From a virus: DNA of 64,000 nucleotides. The position numbers and the translations under genes are program-made. The notes under the pieces were generated by a model. It was given only the letters and a program-made list of their open reading frames with translations. It did no database searches and was not told the DNA's origin. Shown here one piece after another: positions 2,354 through 44,642 of this stretch (the first letter of the stretch is position 1; every line of letters begins with the position of its first letter). The stretch lies in IMG/VR virus record IMGVR_UViG_3300044535_002275, positions 1-64,000 of that record; one strand, given 5' to 3'.

Positions 2354-2366
2354 TTACCTGGGTTCC

Positions 2367-3451: not shown

Positions 3452-3459
3452 AGTGATAT

Positions 3460-25059: not shown

Positions 25060-28000
25060 ATGGCCAAGACTACGAGACAAACAGCAATATTCGGAGTAGA
25101 AGACTGGAAGCGTCTATATCAGACCTATAGAGAGGCTGATTTCCAAAGTTACGACTTTGAAACCTTACGCAAGAGTTTTGTTGATTATCTACGTCTTTAC
25201 TATCCAGAAACTTTTAACGACTACATCGAAAGTTCTGAATTTATTGCTCTTCTGGATGTTATGGCATTTATGGGCCAGGCCTTGGCCTTCCGTAATGATC
25301 TTAATGCACGTGAAAACTTCCTAGATACCGCAGAACGCCGAGACAGTGTTGTGCGCTTAGCCAACTTGGTGAGTTATACTCCCAAACGCAATCAAGCAGC
25401 GCAAGGATTTCTTAAAGTTTTTTCAGTAACAACAACCGAAGATATCACTGACTTTAACGGTATTAACTTGTCCAATGTCACGGTCAACTGGAATGATCCC
25501 ACTAATCCCAACTGGCTCGAGCAATTTACTTACATTGTCAATGCAGCCATGGTCGACAGTCAAAAATTTGGTCGTCCTGGTAACAGTCAAGACATTTTAG
25601 GAGTAAGAACCGAAGAATATGCTTTAAATTTGGTACCAGGATTCCTGCCTATTGTGGGATATAACAGCATTGTTGATGGAGTCAGCATGCCTTTTGAAGC
25701 GGTCAGTAGCACCAGTCAGGGTCGTGATTATGTCTACGAACCGGCACCGCGCCCTAGTGGAATTTTTAATGTACTGTACCGCAATGATCAGTTGGGTTTC
25801 GGCAGCGACAACACTGGCTATTTCTTTTTATTCAAGCAAGGTATCTTGCAAAACCAGGACTTTAACTTAGCAGAAGCTATTCCAAATCGTACTGTCAACA
25901 TCAATATTGAAGGTGTTAACAACGAAGATTACTGGCTTTACAAATTAGACAATGTAGGCTCGATTGAAAGCGAATGGCTGTATCGTGAAAGCATCTATGC
26001 TGCTGCAGTTGAACAGCTATCGCCAGAGCAGAGAAAAATTTATTCAATTACTAGCCGAGCCAACGATCAAATCACATTGACATTTGGCGACGGCGTATTT
26101 GCCGAAGTACCGGTGGGAATATTTCGAAGTTATGTTCGAGCTTCTAACGGATTACAGTATATTATCAATCCTGAAGAAATGCAGAGTATTTTGATTCCAA
26201 TCAGTTACATTAGTCGTGTGGGTCGATTAGAAACTATTACTTTTAACTGCGGTATTACTAACCCTGTCAGTAATGCACAGCCTCGCGAAACAATTGAAGA
26301 AATCAAGCAACGTGCGCCTGCTCGTTACTACACACAAAATAGAATGGTCAACGGCGAAGATTACAATAATTTTCCGTTCACTCAATACAACAACATTATT
26401 AAAAGCAAAGCAGTGGCTCGCAGTGCCACAGGAACTAGTAGATACATTGATCTCAATGACGTTACTGGCAAGTATTCTTCCACTAACATTTTTAGCAGTG
26501 ACGGCGTTTTATACAGAGAAAATCTCTTGCCTAGTTTTGAATTTGACTGGGTAAATCGCAATGACATTGTTGACGTCATTACTAATTCTATTGAGCCGTT
26601 GTTGAGCAGCCGCAGTATGTTGCAGTTCTATTATGCCAATTTTAACCGTCCAAGTCTGCAGATTTTAAATTTGGCATGGCAGCAGAGTACAACACTGGTC
26701 AACGAGACCACTGGATATTTTTATAATACTCTCAATCAAGCTCCGCAGCCCATTGGCGTCTATGCCAGCAACAATGCCAAGTACATCGAGCGAGGTGCAT
26801 TAATTAAATTTGTTCCGCCAGCTGGTTACTTTTTTGACGCCAACAATCGTTTGGTGGCCGGGATTCCTGTCAGAGCCGACGAAAGACTAGAACTTTGGGC
26901 AACAGTTTCGGCAGTGGTTTTAGATGGAACTAATTTGGGTGTCGGCAATCTCGATAACGGCACCGGCCCTGTAGTGCTTAATACTTTTGTCCCCACTGGA
27001 GCCCTTGCATTGCAAGTGATACCTAAGTTTGTAGATGATTTGCCATCTACACTTGAACAAAGTATGTTACAGCAGGTTGAATTGTTTAGAGATTTCGGCC
27101 TAGGGTACGACAACAACGACAGCACGTGGTATATCATAACCAGCACTAATCTTGCCAACGATGCACCGTTTAGTCTAGCAAATGCACAAAACACTCAGGG
27201 TATTAATCTTGACGCTTCCTGGTTGATACAATTTGTCACAGACGGAGAAAGTTATACTGTGGTTTCTCGGGGTCTTGATTATATTTTTGCCAGCGTTATT
27301 GAAACTAGATTTTTCTTTGACGGGAGTGAAAAAGTTTATGACAGTCGTACTGGTAAAGTAATCAGCGACTTTGTGAGAGTATTAAAGACGAATGCTCGTC
27401 CTGACAGCAACGAACCGTTGCCGGGTGACATAACTATGGAAATTATTGCACAGCCTGTACAAAGCGACGGTTATGTTGACGATTATCAAGTGGTGGTTAG
27501 TTACAGAGATTCTGACAGTGACGGAGTTGCTGATAATCCAGATTTCTTTGACGAAATAGTTGCGCCCACAGTTAATCCTACAACAAAATATGTGTTCTTG
27601 CAATTGACAACAGATTTTGATGACACTGAAACTTATCTTCCTGTAGCAGCTGGGATAATAAATGCTTCATATCCAACTAAAGATTCTATTGAATTAGTTA
27701 AAAACGAATTTATCAACGGACAGTTGTTTTACACTTATCAGTCTCAAGAATTTTATGAGTTAGTGATATCCAATGTTAATGGATTAATACAGCGTGTGCT
27801 CAATCCAAGACTAGACTTTTTAAGTCGTGTAGGCCGACAGAGTTTATATTTTCAGTACCGACATAATAGTCCATTGACTAATGTAATTGATCCTGGCGCT
27901 ACCAATATCATTGACTTGTACATAGTTAATCAAGAATACTATACTGCCTACCAGAACTATATCAAGGACTCAACTGGTACGGTGGCAGAACCTCTGCCAC

Positions 28001-28524
28001 CGTCGATCAGTCAGCTGAGTCTGGCTTATTCGGGACTCAATGATTATAAAATGATTTCTGACAATATGGTTCTCAACAGCGTGGTGTTTAAGCCTTTGTT
28101 TGGTGCCAAGGCAGCACCAGAACTGCGTGCAACTATCAAGGTAGTGCGTGCTCCAAAAACAACCGCTAGCATCAGTGAAATCAAGAGCCAGGTAATTGCC
28201 AACATCAACGACTATTTTACTATTGATAAATGGGATTTTGGTGATAATTTCTTTTTCTCAGAGCTGGCAGCATTTTTACATGAAAGACTGGGATCTATTA
28301 TCAGCAGTGTGGTACTGGTACCTCTGAACCCTTTAAAGAGTTTTGGTGATCTTTATGAAATACGTTCTGCACCTAATGAAATTTTTGTCAGTGCAGCAAC
28401 AGTTAATGATGTTGAAGTAATCGATGCTCTTACTCAAAGTGCAATACGTAGTCAGACTCCTGTATCGGGATTATATCCAGTCAGCAGTCTTGGCAGCAGT
28501 CTTAGTCAAACAGGCGAATATTAA
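25060..28524 (+). CDS. 6: Baseplate wedge protein, gp6-like
   Basis: An 1154-residue protein. The N-terminus is clear gp6: SFVDYLRLYYPETFNDYIES, then SEFIALLDVMAFMGQALAFR and RRDSVVRLANLVSYTPKRN. Residues about 330-460 include TFGDGVFAEVPVGIFRSYVR and RYYTQNRMVNGEDYNN, typical of baseplate J-like folds. The C-terminus again carries gp6-type sequence (KSQVIANINDYFTIDKWDFG). It is much longer than T4 gp6 (660) through inserted beta-rich domains between about 560 and 1000. Dimers of gp6 form the continuous ring of the inner baseplate. Confidence 0.93.
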   Translation: MAKTTRQTAIFGVEDWKRLYQTYREADFQSYDFETLRKSFVDYLRLYYPETFNDYIESSEFIALLDVMAFMGQALAFRNDLNARENFLDTAERRDSVVRLANLVSYTPKRNQAAQGFLKVFSVTTTEDITDFNGINLSNVTVNWNDPTNPNWLEQFTYIVNAAMVDSQKFGRPGNSQDILGVRTEEYALNLVPGFLPIVGYNSIVDGVSMPFEAVSSTSQGRDYVYEPAPRPSGIFNVLYRNDQLGFGSDNTGYFFLFKQGILQNQDFNLAEAIPNRTVNINIEGVNNEDYWLYKLDNVGSIESEWLYRESIYAAAVEQLSPEQRKIYSITSRANDQITLTFGDGVFAEVPVGIFRSYVRASNGLQYIINPEEMQSILIPISYISRVGRLETITFNCGITNPVSNAQPRETIEEIKQRAPARYYTQNRMVNGEDYNNFPFTQYNNIIKSKAVARSATGTSRYIDLNDVTGKYSSTNIFSSDGVLYRENLLPSFEFDWVNRNDIVDVITNSIEPLLSSRSMLQFYYANFNRPSLQILNLAWQQSTTLVNETTGYFYNTLNQAPQPIGVYASNNAKYIERGALIKFVPPAGYFFDANNRLVAGIPVRADERLELWATVSAVVLDGTNLGVGNLDNGTGPVVLNTFVPTGALALQVIPKFVDDLPSTLEQSMLQQVELFRDFGLGYDNNDSTWYIITSTNLANDAPFSLANAQNTQGINLDASWLIQFVTDGESYTVVSRGLDYIFASVIETRFFFDGSEKVYDSRTGKVISDFVRVLKTNARPDSNEPLPGDITMEIIAQPVQSDGYVDDYQVVVSYRDSDSDGVADNPDFFDEIVAPTVNPTTKYVFLQLTTDFDDTETYLPVAAGIINASYPTKDSIELVKNEFINGQLFYTYQSQEFYELVISNVNGLIQRVLNPRLDFLSRVGRQSLYFQYRHNSPLTNVIDPGATNIIDLYIVNQEYYTAYQNYIKDSTGTVAEPLPPSISQLSLAYSGLNDYKMISDNMVLNSVVFKPLFGAKAAPELRATIKVVRAPKTTASISEIKSQVIANINDYFTIDKWDFGDNFFFSELAAFLHERLGSIISSVVLVPLNPLKSFGDLYEIRSAPNEIFVSAATVNDVEVIDALTQSAIRSQTPVSGLYPVSSLGSSLSQTGEY

Positions 28525-28526: not shown

Positions 28527-31500
28527 ATGGCAACACGTCGTACAGTTGATTTACTACCCGAGATTTTTAGAACTGATACCAATCGCAAGTTCTTAGGAGC
28601 AACGCTTGATCAGTTGACACAAGAACCTAACTTGATACGTACTCAAGGTTATGTGGGCCGTCGTGTTGGACCCGGTGTCAATCCTGCTGATAATTACGTA
28701 GTCGAATCTACAGCCGCCCGTACTGATTATCAGCTTGAACCCGGTGTAATTTTTCTGCAGCCAGAAACTACTCGTGCCATTGACGCAATCACTTACCCTG
28801 GCATGTTAGATGCACTGAATTTACAAGGTGCAGATACTACCAGACAAGATCGACTGTTTAAAAGTCAATACTATTCTTGGGATCCGTTTTGCGATTTAGA
28901 TAAGTTTGTAAACTACAATCAGTACTACTGGTTACCTGCCGGTCCGGATTCTGTAGATATTTTTGGAACCCCGATTGCCTTAACAGATTCATGGGAAATA
29001 ACACGCATTGACACCGGGTACACCTTCAGCGACATTGCCGGAGAAAACCCAGTCTTGACGCTAGTTCGCGGCGGCAATTACACGTTTGATGTTAATCAGC
29101 CTGGAAACAACTTCTGGATTCAAGCAGCACCAGGAATTAATGGTAAAATGCCTTATGCTAATAATATCAGCAGTAGGGATGTTTTAGGAGTGATAAACAA
29201 CGGCGAAGATCAAGGGTCTGTTCAATTTAATGTGCCGTTAAAATCTGCCCAAGATTTTTATTATTCTTTGTCCAGCATCGGCGAAGTTGATCTTGTTACA
29301 GATTTAAAATTCAATCAAATCAACAATGTTTATGTAGATCAATTTTTTGCTCAGTACCCCAATGGTATTGACGGGATTTCCGACCTCAACGGTCGAACAA
29401 TAGTTTTTACAAATACTATTGCCGATGCTGAAGCCGGTGGATGGGAAGTTACTACTCAATTTGATCCATTGGTTAGAACTGCTCCGGTTGATCAGCCTGA
29501 TCCATTGAATGGATTTCCTGGCAGTTATGATGTAGAGTTATTTGATCAAACAACCGCTATCACTAATCAGTCTCAGAGATATAGTGTGTGGCAGATACAG
29601 TATGTACTTGATAACCAAGGTAATGCTTACATGCAATTGGGTAGTATTCGATTGGTTCCTAATCTTAGCAAATTTACTGTGCTATTCGGGACCGTCAATG
29701 CCAGTACTCAATGGTACAAAAATGCTTCAGGGTTTTTTGAACAAATTCCTTTACTGACAGCAGTGCTTGATACCCTTTGGTATCAAGATGGAACCAACCC
29801 AGAAATTTTTGGTAGAATTAAATTAGTCGACGCTGGGCAAGAATTAATTATCGATGCCAATGATATTGTTGGAGCAAAAAACTACACTAGTCCAAATGGT
29901 GTAACTCTTACCAATGGATTAAAGGTGCAGTTTCGTGGCGAAGTTGCTCCGGCGCAGTTTCAAAATTTAGAATATTATGTAGAAGGTGTTGGTACTGGAC
30001 CCGGTATTGATGTTAGAGTTGGGTTCATCGACGGCGAAGCTTATTTTGGACCGTCGCACATTTATCAAGGTCGACGCATGACCGGAAATGTGCATTCTGA
30101 TTTAGTTTTCCAACAATATATCTACGACACAGTTGAAGAAAGTTTAGTTAACGTAGGATCCGGAGCACCCGAAGGAGCGCCATTGGCAACACAAGGGCAA
30201 TTAGGCGCCAATATCGGCAACGGCATAAAATTACTACCTGTCACTGAATTTGTTACTCCGGAAAAGTATACTCGCAGTGCAACCATTCCTTACGACAGTA
30301 CACCTTACGATGCCTCACCCTACGATGCCAGACTTAATGCACCGCAAAACTCAGATTATATTACTATTAATCGCGCCGGCCGAGACCTTAATGCCTGGAC
30401 ACGCAGTAACAGATGGTTCCATATTGAGGTAATCAGAGCAACAGCAGATTATAACAATCAAACCCTGGTGTTGGATAATTCTCTCAGAGCCAAGCGTCCT
30501 ATTATTGAGTTTAGAGCCGGATTGAATCTTTATAATTTTGGAACTCAAGGAAAAACTCCAGTTAACGTTGTTGATTTTACAGTTACAGATGCATTCAGCA
30601 CGATCAATGGACAGTTAGGTTACAGCACCGATGGCTATACTTTTTTACAAGGTAGTCGTGTAATTTTTGCAGCTGATACTGATCCTGCGGTTAGAAATCA
30701 AATTTGGGAAGTAACATTCATTGATCCAAACAATTCAGGTATAAAGATCATAGATCTTGTGCCTGTAGTCAACGGCCTGGCACTAAGAAATCAAACTGTG
30801 GTAGTTCTTAGCGGCAATTTACAACAGGGCAAGAGCTACTGGTTTGATGGCGCTGTATGGCAACCAGCTCAAGAAAAAACTCAGATAAATCAACCTCCAT
30901 TGTTTGATGTATTTGACAACGATGGAAACAGCTTTGGTGATTTATCAGTCTATCCCAGTTCAACGTTCAACGGAAGCCAGCTTTTTGGATATGCAATAGG
31001 CACTGGTCGTACTGACGATATACTTGGATTTCCTTTAAGATATCTAAACATCAATAACGTAGGAGATATTGTTTTTGAAAATTATCTCTACACTGATTCT
31101 TTTTTGTACGTTGAGGATAATGTCAGCGAGGAACTGGCAGTTAGCTCTGGTTTTATTCGTCAATACATTGATCGAGTAACTTTTACAGACGAAATTGGCT
31201 GGCAAACAGCCGCAGCTCCTTCACAGAGTCGACAGCTATTTAAATTTTCCTACGATGAATTGCCGCTGGAATTAGACATTGCAGTTGATACAAACACAAC
31301 ATTCACACCGTTACAGATTTTTGTTGAAGGGACTTTTATTGACCCAGAGAATTATGTATACGAAACAACTGCCACAACCACTGTTATAACACTGTTGTTG
31401 GACATACCTGTTGGCACTGTTATTGAAGTACAAGCTCTCAGCAATCAGGCTAGTACTGTGGGATTCTATCAGGTTCCTGCTAACTTAGAAAATAACCCGT

Positions 31501-34500
31501 TGAACGAAAACAGCGATTCATTTACACTAGGTACTATTCGCACTCATTACGAAAGCATTGGACAAAATTTAAGAAATATCGAAGGTCCTATCAATGGAGC
31601 CAACAACAGTCGAGATCTTGGTAACATTCTCAGATACGGCGATGTTATTATACAAAATTCTTCTCCTGTGGCGTTGACCGGTGTATTTTTACGTCAACAA
31701 CAGTTTGAATTATTTTCAGCACTGGATTTTAACAATCAAGAATATGCCAAGTTTAAAAATCTTTTGTTGGATCTTACCACACGCGGAGATTTTGAAAACT
31801 TTACTCCAACGCAGATATTGGACATTGTGTTGCAGGAAATCTCATTGGGCCGCAGTGAGTTGTCACCATTTTACTGGAGCGACATGCTGCCAGCTGGTGA
31901 AACTTTTACAGAAAATACTTACACCTATTCAGTTATTAGCACTCCGGTTTTCGACACCCTACAAACTTACGATTTTGAAAGTTCAAACTTCAAAGGTTTA
32001 TTGGTCTTCCTTAACGGCAGCTTATTAACTAAAGATTATGAATATATCGTATCAGATGATTCACCAACATTAACTATTACAGCGCCATTGGCCATTGGAG
32101 ACTCCATCAGAATTAGAGAATATCCAACAACTTACGGCAGTTATGTACCCAACACTCCTACAAAGATAGGATTGTATCCATCATTTAAACCTGCTATTTA
32201 CATAGACGAAACTTACCTGTCTCCGCGTGCAGTGATTCGAGGACACGACGGGTCTATTACCGTAGCATTTTCAGATGTAAGAGATCAGGTTCTGTTGGAA
32301 TTTGAAACTAGAATATTCAATAATTTAAAGATACAATCGACAGTGCCATTGGTTGCTGCAGATGTTACACCGGGCCAATTTAGAACAACAGATTATACAC
32401 TAACTGAAATCAACCAGATTCTGTCTACGGATTTTTTAAGTTGGATTGGATGGAACAAGCTAGATTATACATCGCAGACGTATCTGGAAAATAATCCTTT
32501 TACCTATAACTATAGTCAGAGTGCCAATGTTTTAACAAAAGCACCATCGATTGGCGCATGGAGAGGGATTTATAACTATTTTTACGATACCTATACTCCC
32601 AACACAACACCCTGGGAAATGCTAGGACTGGCAGAAGAACCCAGTTGGTGGCAGGAAGAATACGGTCCAGGTCCTTATACCAGTGGTAACACAGTTCTTT
32701 GGGACGACCTTGCTGCCGGTATCATCCGAGATCCGCAAGGAGCATATATTGATCCTCGATACGTGCGTCCAGAATTGCTGTCGGTGTTGCCGGTAGGTTC
32801 CGAAGGAGAACTGTTGAATCCGTTGGATTGTACAGTTGGTAATTTTGATGCCACCAGCTTCCGTAGAAGTTGGGTGTTTGGCGACGACGGACCAGTTGAA
32901 AATGCCTGGCGCACTTCCAGCGCATGGCCTTTTGCTGTCATGCGATTATTGGCATTAACAAATCCTGCTAAGTTTTTTAGTTTGTTTGCCGACAGAGATC
33001 GTTATGTTTACAATCCAGCAATTGAACAATTTCTCTGGGACGGAAGATACCGTCTTGATGCCAAAAAGCTGACACCTTTGTACGGTAATGGTGTCAGCAA
33101 AGCCAGTTATCTTGACTGGATTATCGATTACAATCGACAGTTAGGACTTAACAGTACTAACAAACTTACATTAACATTAAACAATATTGATGTCAGATTA
33201 TGCTGGAGAACCGGTTCGTTCACTGACAAACGCTACTTGAAAATTCTAACCGAACGTTCAGCCCCGGATAGTCAAAACACCAGTTTTGTGCTGCCAGACG
33301 AAAGTTATCAGTTATTACTGTACAAAAATCAGCCGTTTGAACGTATAATTTACAGTTCGGTGGTGGTACAAAAAACTGAATCCGGTTATGTGGTCTTGGG
33401 CTATAGCAATCAAGATCCATATTTTGAAGCATTAGTGTCTCGCCCTGGTCCCAACTCAGTTGATATTGCCGCTGGTAATGTATCAGTTAGACTGTCAACT
33501 GATTATACAGATAACACAGTGCGTATACCTTACGGATTTGAGTTTTCTAATACAACTGGTGTATGTGATTTCCTAGCCGGCTATGGACAACTGCTGGAAC
33601 AACAAGGCTTGATATTTGAAAACAGAGAAAATGGTTACACTTTAAATTGGTTGCAAATGGCCCAGGAATTTCTGTACTGGACACAGCAGGGTTGGGCAGT
33701 CGGCTCCATTATTAATTTAAATCCTGCAGCAACTAGTATATCGATTGAAAGGCCTCAAGCTGTAGTCGATAGTATTAATACCTACACCCCTGAGAATATT
33801 ATTCTGAATCAGAATCGTCAAGCCTTGCCGGTATCTGAATTAATTGTTGATAGACTGGATAACTTATTTCGTGTAACTACTACAACTTCTAATACCATCA
33901 ATTATATACAATTAAAGTTTACTGCGTTTGAACATCTAGTTGTTATTGATAACCGCAGTATATTTGCTGACTTGATTTATCAGCCAGTGACCGGTGTAAG
34001 ACAAAGTCGTGTGCTAGTGTCAGGATGGCTCAGTGGCGACTGGACCGGCAGACTTAATGCTCCTGGCTTTATTCTCAATCAAGACAACATCGTAGAATGG
34101 GTACCAAATCGAAAATATGCCAAGGGCGAAATTGTTCTGTTTAAAAATGAATATTGGGCAGCTGGTACTATTATTCAGCCCAGCCAGCAGTTTAATTACA
34201 ACGAGTGGGTCAAGAGCGATTACGCAGATATACAGAAAGGGTTGTTGCCTAATGCCGCTAATGCCAGTGATCAATTATCCACAGCTTACAGCGTGTACGA
34301 TGCTAATCTCGAAAGCGAAGTTGACTTGTTTAGTTACGGATTAATCGGATTCCGACCAAGAGAATATATGCAGGCACTGAATCTTGACGACGTTAGTCAG
34401 GTCAATCTATATCAGCAATTCTTAAAGTCCAAAGGTACACTTCAAAGTGCTGAATTATTCAGCTTGGCTGACCTTGGCAAGGAAACCGCTGAGTATAACA

Positions 34501-37500
34501 TATATGAATATTGGGCTATTCTGCGCAGCGCATACGGAGCCACAGCCAACCGTAGTTATTTTGAACTATTACTTAATCAAGCGTTATTGCCAAGCGATCC
34601 TAGTTTGGTGCAAGTAGTATTACCAGGACAAGAATCTCCAGCAGATCAGGCAATACTGCTGCAAAACGTCTGGAAGTCATCGACTAAGTTGACATCACCT
34701 AACATTCTACCTACCTCAGTTCCTGCAGAGACAGACCGTAATTTACCATCGGCTGGTTATCCCAATCTTGAGGACGTTGATATCACAGCATTTGATTTAG
34801 TTGCTGTTGAAAATAGCGATGCGTTAATAGGTGACATAGGTGTTGGTACTACTATCTGGGTAGCCAAGGTCAATAATTACGATTGGAATGTGTACAGAGC
34901 TCAATTGGTAAATGCTGGAATTACACAAGTTTCTGACAATCTTGAGGGACGAGCACTGGTTGAATTTGACTCAGTTCACGGACTGACAACCGGCGATCTA
35001 TTGGTCATCAAGTTTTTCAATGACGAGATTAACGGAATATATCGTGTTGGTGCAATTCCTAGCATAACAACATTGTTGATTGATTATGTATTCACCGGAT
35101 TACAAACTACCTTCACTGGAACTGGGATTGGATTTACTTTAGAAACTGCCAGAGTCTCCCAGGCTTCTGACATTGTTAATTTACCTTATGCCAAACAATT
35201 ACCGCCAGGCGTGCGTATATGGGTCGACAACAACGGGAACGGACGTTGGACAGTGATCGAAAAAACTGATCCATTTACCTCACCTTTTACAGTGGTCCCA
35301 GACGCTATAGTAGAAAATTCTAGATTCGGAGCTAGTGTTGCTCAAGGATTCCAAAATCTAAGTTCATTGGTAGGTGCTCCGGGATACAATCCTAGTGGTC
35401 TAGCAGCAGCCCCGGGTGCTGTTTATACCTATGTCAAAACTGATGCCAATACTTACAAACAAAATTCAATATTACAATTAGGTACAACAGGAACTGCCGG
35501 TTATGGTAATGCCATCGACATGGGAGATCAGCAATGGGCAATAATTGGAGCCAGTGACAGTTTAAGCGGTCAGGGCTATGCTTCGATAGTTTATAGAAAT
35601 CCTGCTTCTAATGTATTCCAGCAGTGGCAAATTTTGTCTATAGACTCTGGTAGTATAGTAACTGCTGCCGACGAGTTTGGCTACTCAGTAACTATGAGCC
35701 AAGACGAACGTTGGATTTATGTCGGTGCTCCAGCTGGTAATCGTGTATATGCATACGGCCGTGTAGATTATCAGACACAATCTGTAGAATATATTGCTGG
35801 TGCAAGTCAAAACTTGTACAACTATACAGATCATATTGTGATCGACATCGACGATCAAATTGTTGTTGCCAATGGAACAGTTTTATTGACATTGGGAATT
35901 GATTATCTGGTATCGGGTCAGAACATAGCATTTCCTGTGCCACCCTTGGCTGGTTCTCTTATTACAATCAGTCGTAGAAACTCTGCTAGCTTCCTAGGCG
36001 ACGGCAGCACAACATCATTTAATTTAGATATGTTGTATTCTGCTACTAATGATTATAGCGTGTCTGTTGAAGTAGATGGCATATTACAGCGTCCGGTAAC
36101 TGATTACTCAGTGGACGGATCAAAAAATCTTGTGTTTGTTGCTGCACCAGTTGATCAATCTGAAATTTTTGTCCGCGCTCAAACATATTTTACGCCTGTT
36201 GCAACTATCACAGCATCTGGTTTGTCGGCATCCGACAGATTTGGGCACAGCATCAGCACAACCACAGACGGACGTCATTTACTAGTAGGTGCTCCAGATC
36301 GTACTTACACCGATCCTGTTACAAGCGAAGTCTATGTTGAAGCTGGGGCTGTTTATGTATTCGACCGATCTGCACAAAATTTTCAAGTCACAGATGCATC
36401 TGATCAAACTTACACAACTGAGTTACCGTTGGTAACACCAACGCAAGTATTGTTAAACAATGCTGCATTAATCAACTCATCTGGATCTATCGGAGGACAA
36501 TATTCAACAGCCGGTCAGACAGTTACTGTTACAGCTAGCCTTTCTGTAGGCGATATTATTTCAGTTGAAACTAATCAGTTTAATCTTGTACAAGTAATAC
36601 GTTCAGATCAGGTTGACGCAGGATCTAAGTTTGGTTACAAGGTTGACCAATGCGTAAATGACTGTAGTTTATACGTGGGTTCTCCGTTTGCTGATTCTGT
36701 GTTGCCCGAATCAGGCAAGGTTGAATTTAATATCAATCAATCTAGATTTTACGGAACTATAACTAGTACAATTGCTAATCCAACATTAACTACGGGAGAT
36801 TTTGTACGTATTAATAACTTCTTTGTAGAAATCACCGGTACTACTATCGAACAGCTGGTTGAAGATATCAATAATGCAGCTTTGCCTAACGTGCAAGCAA
36901 GTTCTACACCAAATCTTACATTAATTGCCAATGGAACTACTAAATCTTTTGATGTTGGGTCAATTTATTCTGCTGCTGAGTCGTACACTACAGTAGTTTA
37001 TGTCAATGATGTTTTACAGACAAGCGGAGTTAACTACAACTACAGTTCTGCAACTCAACAAATTACATTTACTATAGCACCAGAATCTGGAAGCCGTATT
37101 GTGGTTGTCAGTGGTCGAATAACTGTATCAGCCAAGAATGTTCAAGCAGCACCAGCATTATCAAAATTAATAGTTAGTCCAGGAACTGGAACTGCATTTA
37201 TTGACATCGGTTGGCCGATTTATGCATGGCAACAGACTATTGTTTCTCCTGTAGAACAAGATTTTGCTCACTTCGGCGAAAGTATTTTCATCAGCGACAA
37301 CACAGTTACTTTGGTAATAGGTGCACCGAATGGAACAGCAATACAGTTCGATACATTTGATAATGATACTACAACATTTGATGCTGACAGTATCACGTTC
37401 TTTGATACAGTACCTCAGAGCGGCGTAGTGTACACATACGACTACCTGCCATCTTCGACGCAATCAGTGACTAATCCTGCACAGTTTGTTTTTGGTCAAC

Positions 37501-40500
37501 AGATTTTTGATAATAGTATTAATTCTTTAGACCAATTTGGAGCCAGCATTGATTATACCACTGGCACACTGTTGGTAGGATCACCCGGAAGCGATTTCAG
37601 CGACAGCCAAGCCAATTATGGTCGTATTGTCGAGCTAATCAATCCAGATCAGTCATCTGCTTGGGTAGTAACACGTACTCAGCAACCGGTAGTAGACATT
37701 GATTTGCTGAACACTGTCTACATGTATGACCGCGTCAGCAACAACACCAAACAATATTTTGATTACTTTGATCCATTACAAGGCCGTTTACTGGGCGCAG
37801 TTGCACAAAACATTGACTATATAGGTGCTGTCGATCCAGCAGCTTATAACGTTGGTCCTGTTGGCAACTACGGAAGTTCGTGGACACAAGAACGTGTGGG
37901 AGAAATTTGGTGGGATATATCCACTGTTCGGTTCCTTGACACCAATCAAGATGATGTAGTTTATGCCAGCCGACGCTGGGGGCAGATATTCCCCGGTAGT
38001 GTAGTTAGAGTCAGCCAGTGGATTGCCAGTTCGGTACCACCAACAGAATATACTGGCCCAGGGGTTCCTGTAAACTTGTTTAGCTACGTAATTTCAACGT
38101 CGTTAAATGAACAAGGTATTTTTGGAACCACATATTATTTCTGGGTTACCGGTATCAGTACTGTCAATCGAGCTGCCAAGAAAACACTCAGTATTGAAAC
38201 TATAACTCAATATATTAATAGTCCTAAAAGCAGCGGAATTTCTTACATTGCTCCTATCAATGCCAGTACCGTGGCAATTTATAACGGACTTTCGTATATT
38301 TCTGCTGAAGATACAGTGCTACACATCGAATACGATCAACAGATCAATGACGATGCAGTACACGTTGAGTACCAGTTGGTACCTCAAGACCGAGAAGACG
38401 GCTTTTTAAGTGATAGCCTGTATTTAAAAATGCAAGACAGTTTATGCGGAGTTGATACTCAAGGAAACTTAGTTCCAGATCCCTTTCTCAGCATCAGTGA
38501 GCAATACGGCGTCCAGGCCCGGCCGCGACAAAGCATGTTTGTTAATAGATTTGCTGCACTAAGAAATTATCTTGGTCGCTCTAATACAGTACTAAAGCAG
38601 TTTCCTATTGCCGAAACTCGTAGATTTAATCTACTCAATAGTCAAGAACCAGAACCTAGTAGTTTTTCCGGAGCTTGGGATTTCCGTGTAGCTAACTATG
38701 AAGAACTAACTTATCAAAACTTATCAGAAGTTCCGTTTGGGTACAGATACTTGGTAGCAAACGACTCCACTAATCGAGGACTTTGGACCATCTATCAAAC
38801 TGTCCCTGGCGTAATTCCGGGATCCAAGGAATTGACGTTAGTGCGTGTGCAAAACTATGATACCAAACAATTTTGGAGTTATATTGATTGGTACTTGCCT
38901 GGGTACAATCCCTTAACACGTATTTTAATCGAAGTTCCTACTTATTCTGCACTAGACACTATCTCCGTTCCTAACGGTAGCAGCGTTAAGGTAACTGCAA
39001 ATGCACAAGGTAAATTCGAGATTTATCAGTATCTCAATAACGAATGGGTTCGTGTAGCATTACAGGATGGAACAATTGAGTTTTCGTCAACATTATGGAA
39101 TTATATCGAAGGTCGATTTGGGTTCGATACTGAGGTATTTGACGCACAGTTTTTCGATCAAGAACCGGTAATTGAAACTCGTAAGATTATACAAGCTATT
39201 AATCAAGAATTGTTTATCGGAGAATTATTGATTGAAAGAAACCGATTGTTGATCCTGATGTTCAATTATATTTTGAGCGAACAGCAGGCCCCGACGTGGC
39301 TGACAAAAACCAGTTTGATCGACGTCGATCATACAATTCGCGACCTAGTCCCTTTTCAGAATTATAGAAGAGACAATCAAGATTTTGTAGTTGATTATAT
39401 TAAAGAAGTCAAACCATATCACGTACAGATTCGAGAATTCAACTTGATTTATAAAGGATTCGATCAATACAATGGTACAGTAAACGATTTTGACTTGCCG
39501 GCATTCTGGGATCCTGCACAAAACTTGTTTATTAGTCCGGTTTTAGATAATGTAGGCAATTTAAGCACCACCAGCAGTTTTGCTGCTACTGATCCAATCT
39601 GGACTACATTTCCCTGGAATCAATGGTATCAAAACTATCTGTTGAGCATTGAGTCAGTTAGTGTTGTCAACGGCGGTAGTGGATACACAGTGCCACCGGT
39701 TGTAATTGTAGTAGGCGAAGCAGAAGTAACTGCTGAAATGACAGCTAGAATAAACAGTGCTGGCAGTGTGATTTCGATAGATGTTGTCAATCCAGGATCT
39801 GGTTATAGTACCACTGCGGAAATTATTCTCGAAGGCGGTAACGGAACCGGGGCACAAGCAGTTGCAGTCATGGGCAATCCATTGGTTAGAGATATTGTCA
39901 CCACAATCAAATATGATCGTTATCAATATCAAACTGACATTGTAACATGGCAATCCGGAGTTAGTTACGACAACGGAACACTGGTTCGATTTGATAACCG
40001 AGTTTGGAGTGCTAGTTCTGATGATAGTTCGGCAGTTAGCGGCGATTCATTTGATCCACAGCAATGGACTTTAGTTCCTGCTGGTAACTTAACTGGTGTT
40101 GATCGTACTATGGGCTACTACGTGCCAACAGTCAATCAGCCAGGCCTTGATTTGGCACTGTTAATATCAGGAGTTGATTATCCAGGCGTACAAGTAGCAG
40201 GTCCAAACTTTAGTCAGAACACAGGCTTTGACGTCGGAAACTTTGATATAAATCCCTTCGACAATATTGCTTTTGGACCAGAAGGATTGCCCACTTACGA
40301 TCCAGCTATTTTGGATGCTATTTACGAAAGCGAATTCACTGATCCTTACTTAGGTATTGGACCCACTGCTATTAACATTGATGGCGGAGAATTTGTAGAC
40401 ACTTATTCTAGTCATGCACCTGAAGAATTAGTTCCGGGTGCAATATTTGATACCCTGGATATTCGTGTATTCACTACTCCTGGCTCTGATTGGGTTGGTG

Positions 40501-42458
40501 ACGGTCATGGATTCCCTACTGCTGCTTTGAGATTCACATATCTTCCAGCTACATTGTCATACAGTTTTGACGGCTTGTTGGAAAATACAGTATCCATTAG
40601 AGTATGGAATCAGACTTTGGGGTTTGAATTAAATCCTGTTACTAATTATTCTATTAATTGGAATAATCTCAGTATCTCTATTAATTCAGGTGTGTCCAAC
40701 GGACAAATTATTGTTGTAACTGCTTATGGATTGGGCGGTGGCAATCAGTTGTATAACAATTCTTACAACGGAGTTGAGGTTGGAAATTCTCTGATACTGC
40801 CAGTGGCTACCAGTTTGATTAATGAAATGGTGATATTTGTAAACGGTCAGCTGATAACAAGCTACACCTACTCTGTCTATGAAACTTATGAAACAAGAGT
40901 TGAGTTCAGTAATACATATACCGCCAGCGACTATGTGGTTGTTTCAGTGTTGGGAGTTTCGACACCGATTGCTGGACGATCATGGAGTACACCGCAGACT
41001 CAATATTTCTTATCTGCAGGAGAATTGGCCTATACTTTGTCAAATAGTTTATCTGGCACAAACCCAGCTAATCTTATTGTAGAGAAAAACGGTATCAGAG
41101 CCCGACCTGCTGAAAGTGTTGAGTATATCGATGACGGCTCTAGCCTGCAATTCTATCTACCGACCAGAGGTGGATATAGTCAAGGCTTGGTATCTGACAA
41201 CGATGTAACAGTCTATATCGATAATACTCCCTTAACATTAGGCACAGAGTTTGTAGTAGATCCGTGGGACGGTGTTACTCCGCGTACAGTTACACTAACT
41301 GCACCTCCTCCGGCTGGATCAATTGTGCTAATTTCTGTGCGAACTGCTGCTCAATATTATCTGTCAGGAAATACCTTAATTTGGAAAAATTCTGGATCAC
41401 TTATTCCAGTAGCAGGAGATATTATTTCTGTTACAACATGGAATGATACTTCAGAGCAAGGCATATTAACGCAGGTGTTTGCCGGGCCCACTTCAGAAGG
41501 CGTACAAATAACACAACCGTACGATACAACAGACTTTGACCTTGCTACAGTCACAGGTGATCCAGGATCATTTGATTATAGCGAAGGTACTATTACGCAA
41601 ACTAATTCGTTTGATACTGGTAGAGAAATATTAAATTCGTCTCGGTTAGAAGTTTCGTTAGATGGCATCTATCTATTTGAAGGTATAGGATATTCAGTCA
41701 ACGGTTCTATAGTAAACATTGCTGGCGCACCAATCAGTGCTGCTCAAATTGTTGCTATCACCAGTTTTACCCAAACTGTGGTACCTGGAGAAATTGGATT
41801 TAGAATTTTCCAAGACATGAGAGGACTGCAATCTACCTATAGAATTAATGAACTAGCCACAACAGAATTAGCACAGCCTCTTTCTGCTACTGATGAAATA
41901 ATCTATGTAGTTAATGCTGAGGCTTTGGCCGAGCCTAACTTAGAACTAGGTTTATTTGGATTAATAACAATCAATGGCGAACGTATATCATATCGTACAC
42001 GAAATTTGGCAAACAACACCTTAAGCGGATTGCGTCGAGGTACTGCCGGAACTGCTGCCGACAGTCATATTTCAGGTGCCGAGGTATACGATATCGGACG
42101 AGGAGAATTGTTGCCTAGAGAAGATCAAGATTATATACAATCACAAGATTATCTAGCCAACGGAACTACTACAGTTTTTGTAACTGATGATATTGTGTTA
42201 ACTGGGCTTACGGTGGCGCAACAAAATCGTGCTGTAGAAGTCTATGTTGGTGGATTGTTGCAATCGGGCGGATACCAGGTAACTAGTGTTGCTCCAGTTG
42301 CAGTTGCATTTAATACTGCTCCTACTGCCAACTATCAAGTAACACTATTAGTGCGCCGCGGAGTCAGTTGGTATACTCCGGGTCCAGGTACTGCTAGCGA
42401 TGGTGTTCCCTTACAAGAACAGCAGACTACAGCCGCAAGGTTTATCCGTGGTGATTAA
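28527..42458 (+). CDS. Giant baseplate/tail structural protein (4643 residues) with propeller repeats
   Basis: One uninterrupted frame of 13.9 kb starting 2 bases after gene 6, where T4 has 7 and 8. The N-terminus (RRTVDLLPEIFRTDTNRKFL, LTQEPN, then YYSWDPFCDLDKFVNYNQYY) matches large structural proteins I know from marine T4-type phages. Residues about 2265-3030 carry FG-GAP-like repeats (FGASV..VGAPG, FGYSV..VGAPA, FGHSI..VGAPD, FGYKV..VGSPF, FGASI..VGSPG), implying a beta-propeller. Residues 3580-3650 hold DFVVDYIKEVKPYHVQIREF. Near 3712, GGSGYTVPPVV and GSGYSTTAEI form a fibre-type repeat. Several DGxxxxxDYxxxG modules follow. The role is a wedge or peripheral baseplate subunit, perhaps a fusion. 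No frameshift is seen. Confidence 0.85.
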   Translation: MATRRTVDLLPEIFRTDTNRKFLGATLDQLTQEPNLIRTQGYVGRRVGPGVNPADNYVVESTAARTDYQLEPGVIFLQPETTRAIDAITYPGMLDALNLQGADTTRQDRLFKSQYYSWDPFCDLDKFVNYNQYYWLPAGPDSVDIFGTPIALTDSWEITRIDTGYTFSDIAGENPVLTLVRGGNYTFDVNQPGNNFWIQAAPGINGKMPYANNISSRDVLGVINNGEDQGSVQFNVPLKSAQDFYYSLSSIGEVDLVTDLKFNQINNVYVDQFFAQYPNGIDGISDLNGRTIVFTNTIADAEAGGWEVTTQFDPLVRTAPVDQPDPLNGFPGSYDVELFDQTTAITNQSQRYSVWQIQYVLDNQGNAYMQLGSIRLVPNLSKFTVLFGTVNASTQWYKNASGFFEQIPLLTAVLDTLWYQDGTNPEIFGRIKLVDAGQELIIDANDIVGAKNYTSPNGVTLTNGLKVQFRGEVAPAQFQNLEYYVEGVGTGPGIDVRVGFIDGEAYFGPSHIYQGRRMTGNVHSDLVFQQYIYDTVEESLVNVGSGAPEGAPLATQGQLGANIGNGIKLLPVTEFVTPEKYTRSATIPYDSTPYDASPYDARLNAPQNSDYITINRAGRDLNAWTRSNRWFHIEVIRATADYNNQTLVLDNSLRAKRPIIEFRAGLNLYNFGTQGKTPVNVVDFTVTDAFSTINGQLGYSTDGYTFLQGSRVIFAADTDPAVRNQIWEVTFIDPNNSGIKIIDLVPVVNGLALRNQTVVVLSGNLQQGKSYWFDGAVWQPAQEKTQINQPPLFDVFDNDGNSFGDLSVYPSSTFNGSQLFGYAIGTGRTDDILGFPLRYLNINNVGDIVFENYLYTDSFLYVEDNVSEELAVSSGFIRQYIDRVTFTDEIGWQTAAAPSQSRQLFKFSYDELPLELDIAVDTNTTFTPLQIFVEGTFIDPENYVYETTATTTVITLLLDIPVGTVIEVQALSNQASTVGFYQVPANLENNPLNENSDSFTLGTIRTHYESIGQNLRNIEGPINGANNSRDLGNILRYGDVIIQNSSPVALTGVFLRQQQFELFSALDFNNQEYAKFKNLLLDLTTRGDFENFTPTQILDIVLQEISLGRSELSPFYWSDMLPAGETFTENTYTYSVISTPVFDTLQTYDFESSNFKGLLVFLNGSLLTKDYEYIVSDDSPTLTITAPLAIGDSIRIREYPTTYGSYVPNTPTKIGLYPSFKPAIYIDETYLSPRAVIRGHDGSITVAFSDVRDQVLLEFETRIFNNLKIQSTVPLVAADVTPGQFRTTDYTLTEINQILSTDFLSWIGWNKLDYTSQTYLENNPFTYNYSQSANVLTKAPSIGAWRGIYNYFYDTYTPNTTPWEMLGLAEEPSWWQEEYGPGPYTSGNTVLWDDLAAGIIRDPQGAYIDPRYVRPELLSVLPVGSEGELLNPLDCTVGNFDATSFRRSWVFGDDGPVENAWRTSSAWPFAVMRLLALTNPAKFFSLFADRDRYVYNPAIEQFLWDGRYRLDAKKLTPLYGNGVSKASYLDWIIDYNRQLGLNSTNKLTLTLNNIDVRLCWRTGSFTDKRYLKILTERSAPDSQNTSFVLPDESYQLLLYKNQPFERIIYSSVVVQKTESGYVVLGYSNQDPYFEALVSRPGPNSVDIAAGNVSVRLSTDYTDNTVRIPYGFEFSNTTGVCDFLAGYGQLLEQQGLIFENRENGYTLNWLQMAQEFLYWTQQGWAVGSIINLNPAATSISIERPQAVVDSINTYTPENIILNQNRQALPVSELIVDRLDNLFRVTTTTSNTINYIQLKFTAFEHLVVIDNRSIFADLIYQPVTGVRQSRVLVSGWLSGDWTGRLNAPGFILNQDNIVEWVPNRKYAKGEIVLFKNEYWAAGTIIQPSQQFNYNEWVKSDYADIQKGLLPNAANASDQLSTAYSVYDANLESEVDLFSYGLIGFRPREYMQALNLDDVSQVNLYQQFLKSKGTLQSAELFSLADLGKETAEYNIYEYWAILRSAYGATANRSYFELLLNQALLPSDPSLVQVVLPGQESPADQAILLQNVWKSSTKLTSPNILPTSVPAETDRNLPSAGYPNLEDVDITAFDLVAVENSDALIGDIGVGTTIWVAKVNNYDWNVYRAQLVNAGITQVSDNLEGRALVEFDSVHGLTTGDLLVIKFFNDEINGIYRVGAIPSITTLLIDYVFTGLQTTFTGTGIGFTLETARVSQASDIVNLPYAKQLPPGVRIWVDNNGNGRWTVIEKTDPFTSPFTVVPDAIVENSRFGASVAQGFQNLSSLVGAPGYNPSGLAAAPGAVYTYVKTDANTYKQNSILQLGTTGTAGYGNAIDMGDQQWAIIGASDSLSGQGYASIVYRNPASNVFQQWQILSIDSGSIVTAADEFGYSVTMSQDERWIYVGAPAGNRVYAYGRVDYQTQSVEYIAGASQNLYNYTDHIVIDIDDQIVVANGTVLLTLGIDYLVSGQNIAFPVPPLAGSLITISRRNSASFLGDGSTTSFNLDMLYSATNDYSVSVEVDGILQRPVTDYSVDGSKNLVFVAAPVDQSEIFVRAQTYFTPVATITASGLSASDRFGHSISTTTDGRHLLVGAPDRTYTDPVTSEVYVEAGAVYVFDRSAQNFQVTDASDQTYTTELPLVTPTQVLLNNAALINSSGSIGGQYSTAGQTVTVTASLSVGDIISVETNQFNLVQVIRSDQVDAGSKFGYKVDQCVNDCSLYVGSPFADSVLPESGKVEFNINQSRFYGTITSTIANPTLTTGDFVRINNFFVEITGTTIEQLVEDINNAALPNVQASSTPNLTLIANGTTKSFDVGSIYSAAESYTTVVYVNDVLQTSGVNYNYSSATQQITFTIAPESGSRIVVVSGRITVSAKNVQAAPALSKLIVSPGTGTAFIDIGWPIYAWQQTIVSPVEQDFAHFGESIFISDNTVTLVIGAPNGTAIQFDTFDNDTTTFDADSITFFDTVPQSGVVYTYDYLPSSTQSVTNPAQFVFGQQIFDNSINSLDQFGASIDYTTGTLLVGSPGSDFSDSQANYGRIVELINPDQSSAWVVTRTQQPVVDIDLLNTVYMYDRVSNNTKQYFDYFDPLQGRLLGAVAQNIDYIGAVDPAAYNVGPVGNYGSSWTQERVGEIWWDISTVRFLDTNQDDVVYASRRWGQIFPGSVVRVSQWIASSVPPTEYTGPGVPVNLFSYVISTSLNEQGIFGTTYYFWVTGISTVNRAAKKTLSIETITQYINSPKSSGISYIAPINASTVAIYNGLSYISAEDTVLHIEYDQQINDDAVHVEYQLVPQDREDGFLSDSLYLKMQDSLCGVDTQGNLVPDPFLSISEQYGVQARPRQSMFVNRFAALRNYLGRSNTVLKQFPIAETRRFNLLNSQEPEPSSFSGAWDFRVANYEELTYQNLSEVPFGYRYLVANDSTNRGLWTIYQTVPGVIPGSKELTLVRVQNYDTKQFWSYIDWYLPGYNPLTRILIEVPTYSALDTISVPNGSSVKVTANAQGKFEIYQYLNNEWVRVALQDGTIEFSSTLWNYIEGRFGFDTEVFDAQFFDQEPVIETRKIIQAINQELFIGELLIERNRLLILMFNYILSEQQAPTWLTKTSLIDVDHTIRDLVPFQNYRRDNQDFVVDYIKEVKPYHVQIREFNLIYKGFDQYNGTVNDFDLPAFWDPAQNLFISPVLDNVGNLSTTSSFAATDPIWTTFPWNQWYQNYLLSIESVSVVNGGSGYTVPPVVIVVGEAEVTAEMTARINSAGSVISIDVVNPGSGYSTTAEIILEGGNGTGAQAVAVMGNPLVRDIVTTIKYDRYQYQTDIVTWQSGVSYDNGTLVRFDNRVWSASSDDSSAVSGDSFDPQQWTLVPAGNLTGVDRTMGYYVPTVNQPGLDLALLISGVDYPGVQVAGPNFSQNTGFDVGNFDINPFDNIAFGPEGLPTYDPAILDAIYESEFTDPYLGIGPTAINIDGGEFVDTYSSHAPEELVPGAIFDTLDIRVFTTPGSDWVGDGHGFPTAALRFTYLPATLSYSFDGLLENTVSIRVWNQTLGFELNPVTNYSINWNNLSISINSGVSNGQIIVVTAYGLGGGNQLYNNSYNGVEVGNSLILPVATSLINEMVIFVNGQLITSYTYSVYETYETRVEFSNTYTASDYVVVSVLGVSTPIAGRSWSTPQTQYFLSAGELAYTLSNSLSGTNPANLIVEKNGIRARPAESVEYIDDGSSLQFYLPTRGGYSQGLVSDNDVTVYIDNTPLTLGTEFVVDPWDGVTPRTVTLTAPPPAGSIVLISVRTAAQYYLSGNTLIWKNSGSLIPVAGDIISVTTWNDTSEQGILTQVFAGPTSEGVQITQPYDTTDFDLATVTGDPGSFDYSEGTITQTNSFDTGREILNSSRLEVSLDGIYLFEGIGYSVNGSIVNIAGAPISAAQIVAITSFTQTVVPGEIGFRIFQDMRGLQSTYRINELATTELAQPLSATDEIIYVVNAEALAEPNLELGLFGLITINGERISYRTRNLANNTLSGLRRGTAGTAADSHISGAEVYDIGRGELLPREDQDYIQSQDYLANGTTTVFVTDDIVLTGLTVAQQNRAVEVYVGGLLQSGGYQVTSVAPVAVAFNTAPTANYQVTLLVRRGVSWYTPGPGTASDGVPLQEQQTTAARFIRGD

Positions 42459-42475: not shown

Positions 42476-42628
42476 ATGAACGATAATAAAGATACTAATT
42501 CTCAGCCAGCAAAACCACAAAATTCTGTGGCCACGAAGCCCAACGAAACCGGGTCGGTGTATATTGAATCCTTTATTAAGATTCATGACCCAAATACTCA
42601 AGAAGTGTTAGTGGAGAAACGAGCATGA
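42476..42628 (+). CDS. Small 50-residue protein resembling the start of its downstream neighbour
   Basis: Encodes 50 residues: a polar Asn/Pro/Lys-rich start, then GSVYIESFIKIHDPNTQEVL. This aligns with the N-terminus of the next protein (GPVTIEGFLKIYDPNNGEIF). Its stop overlaps the next ATG (ATGA), so the two are likely translated together. It looks like a partial duplication retained as a separate peptide, or a conserved docking motif. No ribosome site is visible. Function is unknown. Confidence 0.6.
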   Translation: MNDNKDTNSQPAKPQNSVATKPNETGSVYIESFIKIHDPNTQEVLVEKRA

Positions 42629-43230
42629 TGTCTTTAGGCCCAGTGACTATAGAAGGTTTTTTAAAGATATATGACCCAAACAATGGGGAAATTTTTGTTG
42701 ACAAACACAATGCAATTCATTATGAAAATATGAGTATTGCATTGGCTCAGTCCCTGGCAAATAAAAATCTAGGCTACATCTACGCCATGGCCTTTGGCAA
42801 CGGCGGATCTAGTGTGGATCCCACTGGTGTTATTACCTATTTGCCGCCGAATGTAACAGGACAAAATGCCGATCTTTATAATCAAACTTTTATTAAAGTG
42901 GTAGATGATAATAGCCCAGCAAATACTGATCCTACACGCAACAATCTTTCTGTATTGCATACATCGGGGCGAGTTTATACTGATGTTTTAGTAACTTGTT
43001 TGTTAGATTATGGTGAACCCACTGGTCAACAGGCATTTGATAACAGCACCAATTTTAATGGTGAATATGTATTTGATGAACTGGGATTAAAAGCCTGGGA
43101 AGGGACTTCAAGTGAGTTGATGTTGATTACTCATGTTATTTTTCACCCGGTACAAAAGAGCCTTAATCGTCAAATACAGATCGACTATACTGTGCGTATA
43201 CAAACACTTACTAACCTAAGTGCGACATAA
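42625..43230 (+). CDS. Structural protein of unknown role, 201 residues
   Basis: Residues 1-70 (GPVTIEGFLKIYDPNNGEIF, ALAQSLANKNLGYIYAMAFG, NGGSSVDPTG) and the ending FHPVQKSLNRQIQIDYTVRI are of a type I recall beside baseplate and fibre genes in marine T4-type phages. The composition is beta-rich, without signal or membrane segment. Position between the giant protein and the fibre genes suggests a baseplate or fibre-attachment subunit. The start could be either of two adjacent ATGs. Confidence 0.72.
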   Translation: MMSLGPVTIEGFLKIYDPNNGEIFVDKHNAIHYENMSIALAQSLANKNLGYIYAMAFGNGGSSVDPTGVITYLPPNVTGQNADLYNQTFIKVVDDNSPANTDPTRNNLSVLHTSGRVYTDVLVTCLLDYGEPTGQQAFDNSTNFNGEYVFDELGLKAWEGTSSELMLITHVIFHPVQKSLNRQIQIDYTVRIQTLTNLSAT

Positions 43231-43280: not shown

Positions 43281-44642
43281 ATGGCATATACAATTAATTT
43301 AACTGATGGCACCATATTTGCTACTATTGCAGATGGTACTATCAACACCAGCTCAAGTATGATTTTAGTTGGTAAAAACTACGCTGGCTACGGTGAATTC
43401 CTAGATGAAAACTTCATTCATCTTTTGGAAAATGGATCCAACTCCGTTCCTCCAGGTGCTCCGTTAACTGGACAACTTTGGTGGGACAAAGCCAATAGTC
43501 TGATGAAAGTCTACACTGGTACAACATTTAAAACTATCAGTGCAGCTACTGCCAGTGCTACAGCGCCAACCAACAACGTCACCGGTGATATTTGGTGGGA
43601 TACTACCAATCAGCAGATGAAAGTCTGGAACGGTACTAGTTTTACTCTTGTAGGTCCTGCCAGCAGTGCTGGACAAGGAACTTCAGGTGCTATCGTAGAC
43701 ACAGTGACAGACAACGTTGCAGTTGATCATGTTGTTATCAAAATGTTTGTAAACGACGTAATTGTTGCAATCATTTCAAAAGATGCTACATTCACTCCTC
43801 AAGTTGCGCTGTCGGGCTTTGCAACCATTGGGCCCGGTATGCAACTCAGTACAACTGTCAGCAATAACTTATTCCGTGGTACTGCATCTAATTCCAGTTT
43901 GTTAGACGGAGTTGCAAGAACTGCATTTTTAAGATCTGATACCAATTCTACTACCACTGGTACTCTTGGTGTACTTAACGATACCGGTTTGACTGTAGGT
44001 GCTGACCAAGATGCTAAGATTTCTGTTTCCACAGTTACTTCTGCTGTCAACATTCAGAATCAAACACAAGATGCTAACATTGCTATTCAGGTCAATGACG
44101 GCGGTTCTACCACAACAGCATTATTAGTTAACGGTGCTACTAGCCAAGTAGGCGTATTAGGCATTACTAATCTTAACGCCAGCGGCGTAGGTAACATCGG
44201 CGCAGCAGGTGCAGCATTTAACACAGTGTTTGCTACTGCTACCACAGCTCTTTATGCTGACGTGGCAGAAAGATTTGCAGCCGACGAAGAGTATATGCCT
44301 GGAACCGTGGTTGAAATTGGTGGAGAAGCAGAAATCACCAAAGCGGTCAATGAACTGAGCGAAAATGTATTCGGGGTCATAAGTACTAGAGCTGCATATC
44401 TCATGAACTCGGGTGCAGGAACAGATTCAACTCATCCTCCTATCGCAATGACAGGTCGCGTTCCAGTAAGAGTATCGGGTATAATTCGTAAAGGTGATCG
44501 ATTAGTTGCAGCTGGTAACGGTCTGGCAAGGTCTGCTCGTGCTAACGAAGCAACTGCGTTCAACGTAATTGGTCGTGCATTAGAAAATAAGACAACCGAC
44601 GACGAGGGCGTAATCGAAGCCATAGTTACAATTAATAATTAA
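43281..44642 (+). CDS. Tail fibre-like protein with intramolecular-chaperone-like C-terminus
   Basis: A 453-residue protein. Two copies of a GQLWWDKANSLMKVYTGTTF / GDIWWDTTNQQMKVWNGTSF unit near residues 65 and 105 are typical of phage fibres. The C-terminal 130 residues (ADVAERFAADEEYMPGTVVE, FGVISTRAAYLMNS, GRVPVRVSGIIRKGDRLV) are the conserved end found in many fibre proteins and resemble the self-cleaving Peptidase_G2-type chaperone domain. Whether cleavage occurs here is not shown. It probably contributes to host recognition. Confidence 0.8.
   Translation: MAYTINLTDGTIFATIADGTINTSSSMILVGKNYAGYGEFLDENFIHLLENGSNSVPPGAPLTGQLWWDKANSLMKVYTGTTFKTISAATASATAPTNNVTGDIWWDTTNQQMKVWNGTSFTLVGPASSAGQGTSGAIVDTVTDNVAVDHVVIKMFVNDVIVAIISKDATFTPQVALSGFATIGPGMQLSTTVSNNLFRGTASNSSLLDGVARTAFLRSDTNSTTTGTLGVLNDTGLTVGADQDAKISVSTVTSAVNIQNQTQDANIAIQVNDGGSTTTALLVNGATSQVGVLGITNLNASGVGNIGAAGAAFNTVFATATTALYADVAERFAADEEYMPGTVVEIGGEAEITKAVNELSENVFGVISTRAAYLMNSGAGTDSTHPPIAMTGRVPVRVSGIIRKGDRLVAAGNGLARSARANEATAFNVIGRALENKTTDDEGVIEAIVTINN

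Follow-up and report, generated by a model that had tools for sequence, protein, structure and literature searches.

A giant protein at the baseplate-wedge position of a T4-type phage carries a predicted seven-bladed, integrin-type propeller as a clean insertion in its scaffold

The window analysed here is a stretch of 64,000 nucleotides (64 kb) of viral DNA, part of a 159,510-bp IMG/VR virus record (IMGVR_UViG_3300044535_002275). It contains a gene for a giant protein that belongs to a family of phage virion proteins, lies directly after a gp6-like baseplate gene and carries, in its middle, a predicted propeller of seven blades that is cleanly inserted into a conserved scaffold. The explanation that we favour, and consider probable, is that the giant is a peripheral baseplate wedge scaffold of a T4-superfamily phage related to RaK2 and PA5oct, with the propeller acting as a docking or adhesion platform at the rim. 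In the usual picture, the baseplate wedge is a conserved machine and the fibres are the variable part. The giant at the wedge position departs from this picture, as it is itself modular, with lineage-specific beta modules in the loops of its scaffold. Its parts, in window coordinates, are as follows.

28527 to 42458, plus strand: giant baseplate-wedge-position virion protein, ATG start, 4643 aa, 511.9 kDa (computed)
28527 to 29006, plus strand: scaffold part 1, residues 1-160, conserved in PA5oct, RaK2, 121Q, CBB, Atu_ph07 and SCTP-2
29004 to 30356, plus strand: lineage-specific insert, residues ~160-610, essentially absent in RaK2-like phages
30324 to 34976, plus strand: scaffold part 2, residues ~600-2150, the part with the highest conservation
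Within 30324 to 34976, plus strand: two T7-fibre-N-like modules, residues 894-970 and 1126-1198
34359 to 34562, plus strand: motif FYxxhIxxKG[T/S]...E.[WF]A near residue 1968, with family-wide conservation
35265 to 37649, plus strand: integrin-type seven-bladed propeller module (predicted), residues 2247-3041 (795 residues)
37659 to 39506, plus strand: scaffold part 3, residues ~3045-3660, shared by every jumbo-phage homologue
39633 to 39896, plus strand: GG.GY repeat module, residues 3703-3790 (phrog_460, phrog_1922)
40524 to 42455, plus strand: variable C-terminal tail, residues 4000-4643, with five T7-fibre-N-like modules

The conserved scaffold matches the profile of PHROG 10938, 'virion structural protein', with 1051.9 bits, and the window protein is the large, propeller-carrying form of this RaK2/PA5oct/CBB-type giant. 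A tblastn search found the family in 86 phage records, every one at <60% identity, including PA5oct-like, RaK2/121Q/CBB-like, SCTP-2, Atu_ph07 and Phosso records. From IMG/VR, 177 loci were fetched, of which 128 contained an ORF with both ends closed (median ~4728 aa, longest 5337 aa); without duplicates and one short ORF, these represent 106 distinct full-length giants. The homologues from cultured phages (PA5oct gp355, RaK2 gp465, 121Q gp582, CBB_236, SCTP-2 gp140 and Atu_ph07 gp180) have 3323-4449 aa and a scaffold that is homologous over residues 1-140, 610-2136 and 3030-3660, mostly with 23-47% identity. For CBB_236, one of these direct homologues, mass spectrometry of virions identified 21 peptides (7.72% coverage; PMC5259590), and PA5oct gp355 carries the annotation 'ESI-MS/MS'. 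The PHROG match and the presence of homologues in virions support an earlier sequence-only reading, in which the gene was called structural. In most of the records examined here, giants of this class (3,300-6,000 aa) bear no label beyond 'virion structural protein' or 'hypothetical protein', and a domain map is now available for them.

Local and family alignments define a scaffold of ~2,400 residues that is common to jumbo phages (about 1-160, 600-2150 and 3045-3660); residues 160-610 and 2150-3030 are largely lineage-specific. The first of these inserts is missing from the RaK2-like giants, with a spacer of 465 aa in the window versus 11-12 aa in RaK2, 121Q and CBB. The giants of loci L012, L014, L015, L018, L021 and L022 have an extra segment of 109-110 aa before window residue 192, which looks like a duplicate of the RGG.YTF.V...FWIQ module next to it. 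Eleven modules resembling the N-terminal domain of the T7 tail fibre were detected by iterative search, two in the scaffold, four within the propeller and five in the C-terminal tail. The corresponding Pfam model, PF03906, scored above its cut-off of 25.2 bits on an 856-aa propeller fragment (32.1 bits) and below it on the whole protein (23.2 bits). The GG.GY repeat module is also found in Syn9 gp101 and gp103 and in many phage structural proteins. From residue ~3660 to the C-terminus, relatives vary between 466 and 1575 aa. A CBM5/12-like segment at residues 3807-3828 was below the Pfam cut-off and is not claimed.

The sequence-only reading had also placed a beta-propeller in the middle of the protein, with at least five FG-GAP-like repeats between residues of about 2265 and 3030. 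The propeller is borne out by Pfam, AlphaFold, Foldseek and a blade HMM, and the range was right; the number of repeats has to be raised to seven. The blades, located from aligned orthologues and the blade HMM, and the modules between them are as follows.

35289 to 35456, plus strand: blade 1, residues 2255-2310
35466 to 35621, plus strand: blade 2, residues 2314-2365
35658 to 35786, plus strand: blade 3, residues 2378-2420
35745 to 36182, plus strand: two T7-fibre-N-like beta modules between blades 3 and 4, residues 2407-2482 and 2483-2552 (PF03906)
36204 to 36386, plus strand: blade 4, residues 2560-2620
36339 to 36572, plus strand: T7-fibre-N-like module between blades 4 and 5, residues 2605-2682 (iterative search)
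36597 to 36746, plus strand: blade 5, residues 2691-2740
36819 to 37109, plus strand: T7-fibre-N-like module between blades 5 and 6, residues 2765-2861 (iterative search)
37236 to 37463, plus strand: blade 6, residues 2904-2979
37500 to 37658, plus strand: blade 7, residues 2992-3044

The Pfam family FG-GAP_2 was matched by the whole protein (E=7e-11) and by the fragment (2.9e-16), and FG-GAP scored 59.8 bits on the propeller fragment against a cut-off of 23. Seven blades were counted in 95 of the 106 distinct giants; of the others, 7 have six blades, 2 have eight, one has five and one, from locus L102, has none. The blade HMM behind these counts was trained on the same giant family, and the predicted structure agrees with a count of seven. 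No match was obtained with this HMM on 200 shuffles of the propeller region. An AlphaFold model of residues 2195-3045 (pLDDT 82, pTM 0.83) predicts that the seven blades form one closed propeller. A Foldseek search of the PDB with this model returned integrin alpha heads on top (E 8e-10, target TM-score 0.59-0.60), with an alignment of ~855 columns for the 851-residue model, and the sequence profile of the propeller alone led weakly to integrin alpha-4 and alpha-IIb (E 0.0045-0.06). The integrin alpha-subunit propeller likewise has seven FG-GAP blades and the same predicted fold, but identity is ~10%, the window propeller has beta modules between blades 3/4, 4/5 and 5/6, and the DxDxDG calcium loops of integrins are absent from its blades, the only similar sequence being DNNGNG at 2234, outside the propeller. 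The sequence-only reading had linked the motif to propellers that bind ligands or metal; its hint at metal binding was overstated.

Among predicted viral proteins, the best Foldseek match (E 1e-30) was to an uncharacterised protein from an uncultured Caudovirales phage; next came many proteins of giant viruses, several of them with an FG-GAP annotation. Two free-standing proteins, BFVD A0A2L0UZX4 (Atu_ph07 'hemagglutinin', 393 aa) and H6WG31 (S-TIM5), have a predicted fold that matches the propeller; Atu_ph07 has this propeller-like fold in A0A2L0UZX4 and lacks the propeller in its giant. A tblastn search for the propeller in 50,697 phage records gave no match, and none of the 61 matches from a pattern scan across GTDB genomes was confirmed. 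These two results bound sequence similarity only, because other viral FG-GAP propellers do emerge when folds are compared. An incomplete coverage of the literature yielded no description of an FG-GAP or beta-propeller wedge protein in phages.

The clearest evidence that the propeller is an insertion comes from L102 (IMGVR 3300023176_005127), where an orthologue of 3767 aa (ORF start 6677) is without exactly the propeller. This protein aligns with window residues 563-2246 and then from 3042, ungapped in its own numbering (2158/2159), and this gapless junction shows that the propeller is a clean plug-in of 795 residues. A junction search returned 7 loci, one of them the contig of L102 itself, and no close second case. 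The blade HMM detected no blade in the giants of RaK2, 121Q, CBB, PA5oct, SCTP-2 and Atu_ph07, all of which lack the propeller. The spacer between the flanking scaffold blocks is 1005 aa in the window, 207-213 aa in RaK2, CBB and 121Q, 319 aa in PA5oct, 501 aa in SCTP-2 and 1528 aa in Atu_ph07, where it consists of other sequence. Residues 1640-3180 of Atu_ph07 gp180 (L004:16789-21411) show a weak match to domain I of the tail-sheath protein gp18 (E 0.0013). As the chain ends of a closed propeller adjoin, such a module could presumably be inserted or lost without harming the scaffold.

Comparison of 47 sequences (1081 pairs) showed that the blades change 1.38x and the inter-blade modules 1.62x as fast as the scaffold, with the inter-blade modules varying most (mean identity 0.38). 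Divergence of the blades tracks that of the scaffold (Spearman 0.85), which indicates that the propeller is old in this branch and mostly vertically inherited, rather than being a frequently swapped receptor tip. More than 100 distinct environmental phages have stably retained it in the same loop, and the natural pairs with and without it (L102, the cultured jumbo homologues) provide a means of testing the role of an accessory wedge domain.

The position of the giant is defined by its neighbours in the window.

8 to 460, minus strand: gp23-like major capsid gene, truncated by the record start
22201 to 24621, plus strand: baseplate hub / tail lysozyme (gp5-like)
24638 to 25012, plus strand: gp25-like wedge subunit
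25060 to 28524, plus strand: gp6-like baseplate wedge subunit, directly upstream of the giant
42625 to 43230, plus strand: conserved 201-aa partner gene (PA5oct gp357, Atu gp177, SCTP-2 139)
43281 to 44642, plus strand: fibre-like protein with an N-terminus common to PA5oct gp358

Of the 96 ORFs taken from the position immediately before a giant (IMG/VR, window included), 93 are gp6 homologues; on the other side, the 201-aa gene comes next in 115 of the 116 loci that extend far enough. PA5oct, RaK2, 121Q, CBB and Atu_ph07 all have the order gp25, gp6, giant; the neighbours of SCTP-2 gp140 carry no annotation. The gene upstream of the SCTP-2 giant, gp141 (L005:24272-33562), encodes ~3096 aa, as compared with ~1150-1320 aa for gp6 elsewhere. 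PA5oct gp358 carries a gp10-like segment. The order hub, gp25, gp6, giant matches gp5, gp6, gp7 of T4, in which gp7 (1032 aa) likewise lies directly downstream of gp6, at the wedge position. Homology is a different matter. When the whole giant and each of its regions were compared, profile against profile, with the gp6, gp7 and gp8 families, no probability exceeded 5%; against gp7, each region gave <1%, and a search of the incomplete 159.5-kb record with T4 gp7, gp8 and gp10 found no match. The suggestion that the giant replaces T4 genes 7 and 8 thus stands by position only; with no gp7 or gp8 profile match, replacement is as much as can be claimed. The whole giant had no match in the PDB by phmmer, and the scaffold-region profiles had at most one weak match each. 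An AlphaFold model of half the scaffold (121Q-like residues 1-1200) was mediocre (pLDDT 62, pTM 0.53) and found no PDB match; it is too weak a model to judge by fold either a wedge function or a gp7-like core bundle with two gp6 copies.

It is conceivable, although we lean against it, that the giant is a genuine orthologue of gp7 which domain insertions have enlarged, and that its KGT...E.WA segment is what remains of the gp7 core. This alternative concerns descent and not role, and is compatible with a wedge scaffold. Its attractions are the position directly after gp6 and the motif around residue 1968, whose FY..hI..KGT resembles, by eye only, FYSTKG of T4 gp7 and FYSTKGT of Syn9 gp101. The latter (L240:763-18993) is a protein of 6076 aa, likewise a giant directly after gp6, and contains a gp7-like segment that matches gp7 over 30 columns around FYSTKG with 78% probability. 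Syn9 gp101 has accessory modules in common with the window giant (T7-fibre-N-like, GG.GY), but its scaffold is not detectably related, and it has LamG and YHYH domains in place of the FG-GAP propeller. Against orthology, no region of the giant reaches 1% with the gp7 profile, PF09684 and PF23786 give no match, and the best gp7-motif match lies near KGT in only 29 of 69 sequences. The likeness to a gp7/P2-gpI-like KGT motif was without statistical support and was set aside. A 100% profile match between residues 1200-2150 of the giant and its own gp6, which would have implied a gp6 paralogue within the giant, was also rejected, as it fell to 0.3% after removal of three non-gp6 sequences from the 96. 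One of these, L126, very probably derives from the giant, because its ORF lacks an ATG near its start and had been trimmed to the first ATG.

On the wedge-scaffold explanation, the giant would occupy the place of gp7 as the outer wedge next to gp6, its scaffold presumably packing against gp6 six times around the hub; both location and copy number are inferred here from synteny. Accessory beta modules would have been plugged into loops of the scaffold in this lineage, the main one being the closed propeller, with four T7-fibre-N-like modules emerging between blades 3/4, 4/5 and 5/6. The propeller may form a multivalent platform at the baseplate rim, to which accessory fibres or proteins dock and which makes contact with the cell surface during adsorption. 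The N-terminal domain of the T7 fibre fastens the fibre to the tail, hence the fibre-N-like modules favour docking, which we regard as a most likely role of the propeller in preference to primary receptor recognition. Contact with the surface is favoured by propellers in host recognition, namely those of phi11 gp45 (five blades, a modelled GlcNAc pocket), PRD1 P2 and phiKZ gp131C (peripheral on the baseplate, seven blades), all three discussed as parts of host-recognition devices (PMC4901313). Those of phiKZ gp131C and phi11 gp45 are also on phage baseplates but are, by description, domains of receptor-binding or peripheral baseplate proteins and not insertions in a wedge scaffold (PMC4901313).

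The same three propellers would also fit a receptor-binding head, with blade loops that bind host glycans or proteins and set the host range, a reading that we consider unlikely but not negligible. Integrin heads bind ligands on the top face of the propeller, and the blades evolve faster than the scaffold, as such a head might. However, their divergence follows the scaffold with no obvious swaps, the C-terminal tail is more variable in length than the propeller, and the calcium loops are missing. It is less likely still that the propeller is architectural filler, which enlarges the rim or braces neighbouring wedges and has no partner outside the baseplate. Vertical inheritance and the conservation of blade number and insertion point would agree with filler, but L102 and the cultured RaK2-like phages manage without it, and inter-blade modules that vary more than any other part would be odd in a packed interface. 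More speculatively, an integrin-like adhesion head may have been built into the wedge itself in a large T4-superfamily branch without cultured members; if so, reversible adhesion or the trigger for contraction would be sensed via the wedge scaffold and not via separable fibres. Finally, an artefact of assembly or annotation, in which separate genes are merged or a frameshift is hidden, is refuted for practical purposes, as 106 distinct ORFs, all closed, have a similar length and an independent contig (L009, IMGVR 3300042391_001453) has the same 4643-aa ORF with 99.98% identity.

The frame from 28527 to 42458 contains no internal stop, whereas the other two forward frames contain 266 and 403. 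The unbroken 13.9 kb, 4643 codons and product of ~500 kDa reported from the sequence are, therefore, intact, and no evidence for merged genes or a hidden frameshift was found. The protein is also large, as was claimed, but not of record size for T4-type phages: the Syn9 protein at the same locus and environmental relatives of up to 5337 aa are longer, and the Atu_ph07 homologue is comparable (4449 aa). The record contains further T4-type genes for gp23, portal, head protease, a gp55-like sigma factor, SbcC/SbcD-like proteins (gp46/47), and the tail lysozyme/hub, gp25-like and gp6-like proteins; as the start of the record cuts the gp23-like gene, the record is incomplete. A radical-SAM-like protein is encoded at 48852-50255 of the window, in the operon that follows the baseplate genes, and three radical SAM genes also lie downstream of the Atu_ph07 giant. 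On the minus strand, 5324-9049 encodes 1241 aa, of which residues ~710-860 match tape-measure, endolysin and metallo-endopeptidase PHROGs; the product is probably a tape-measure or tail protein that includes a peptidase domain.
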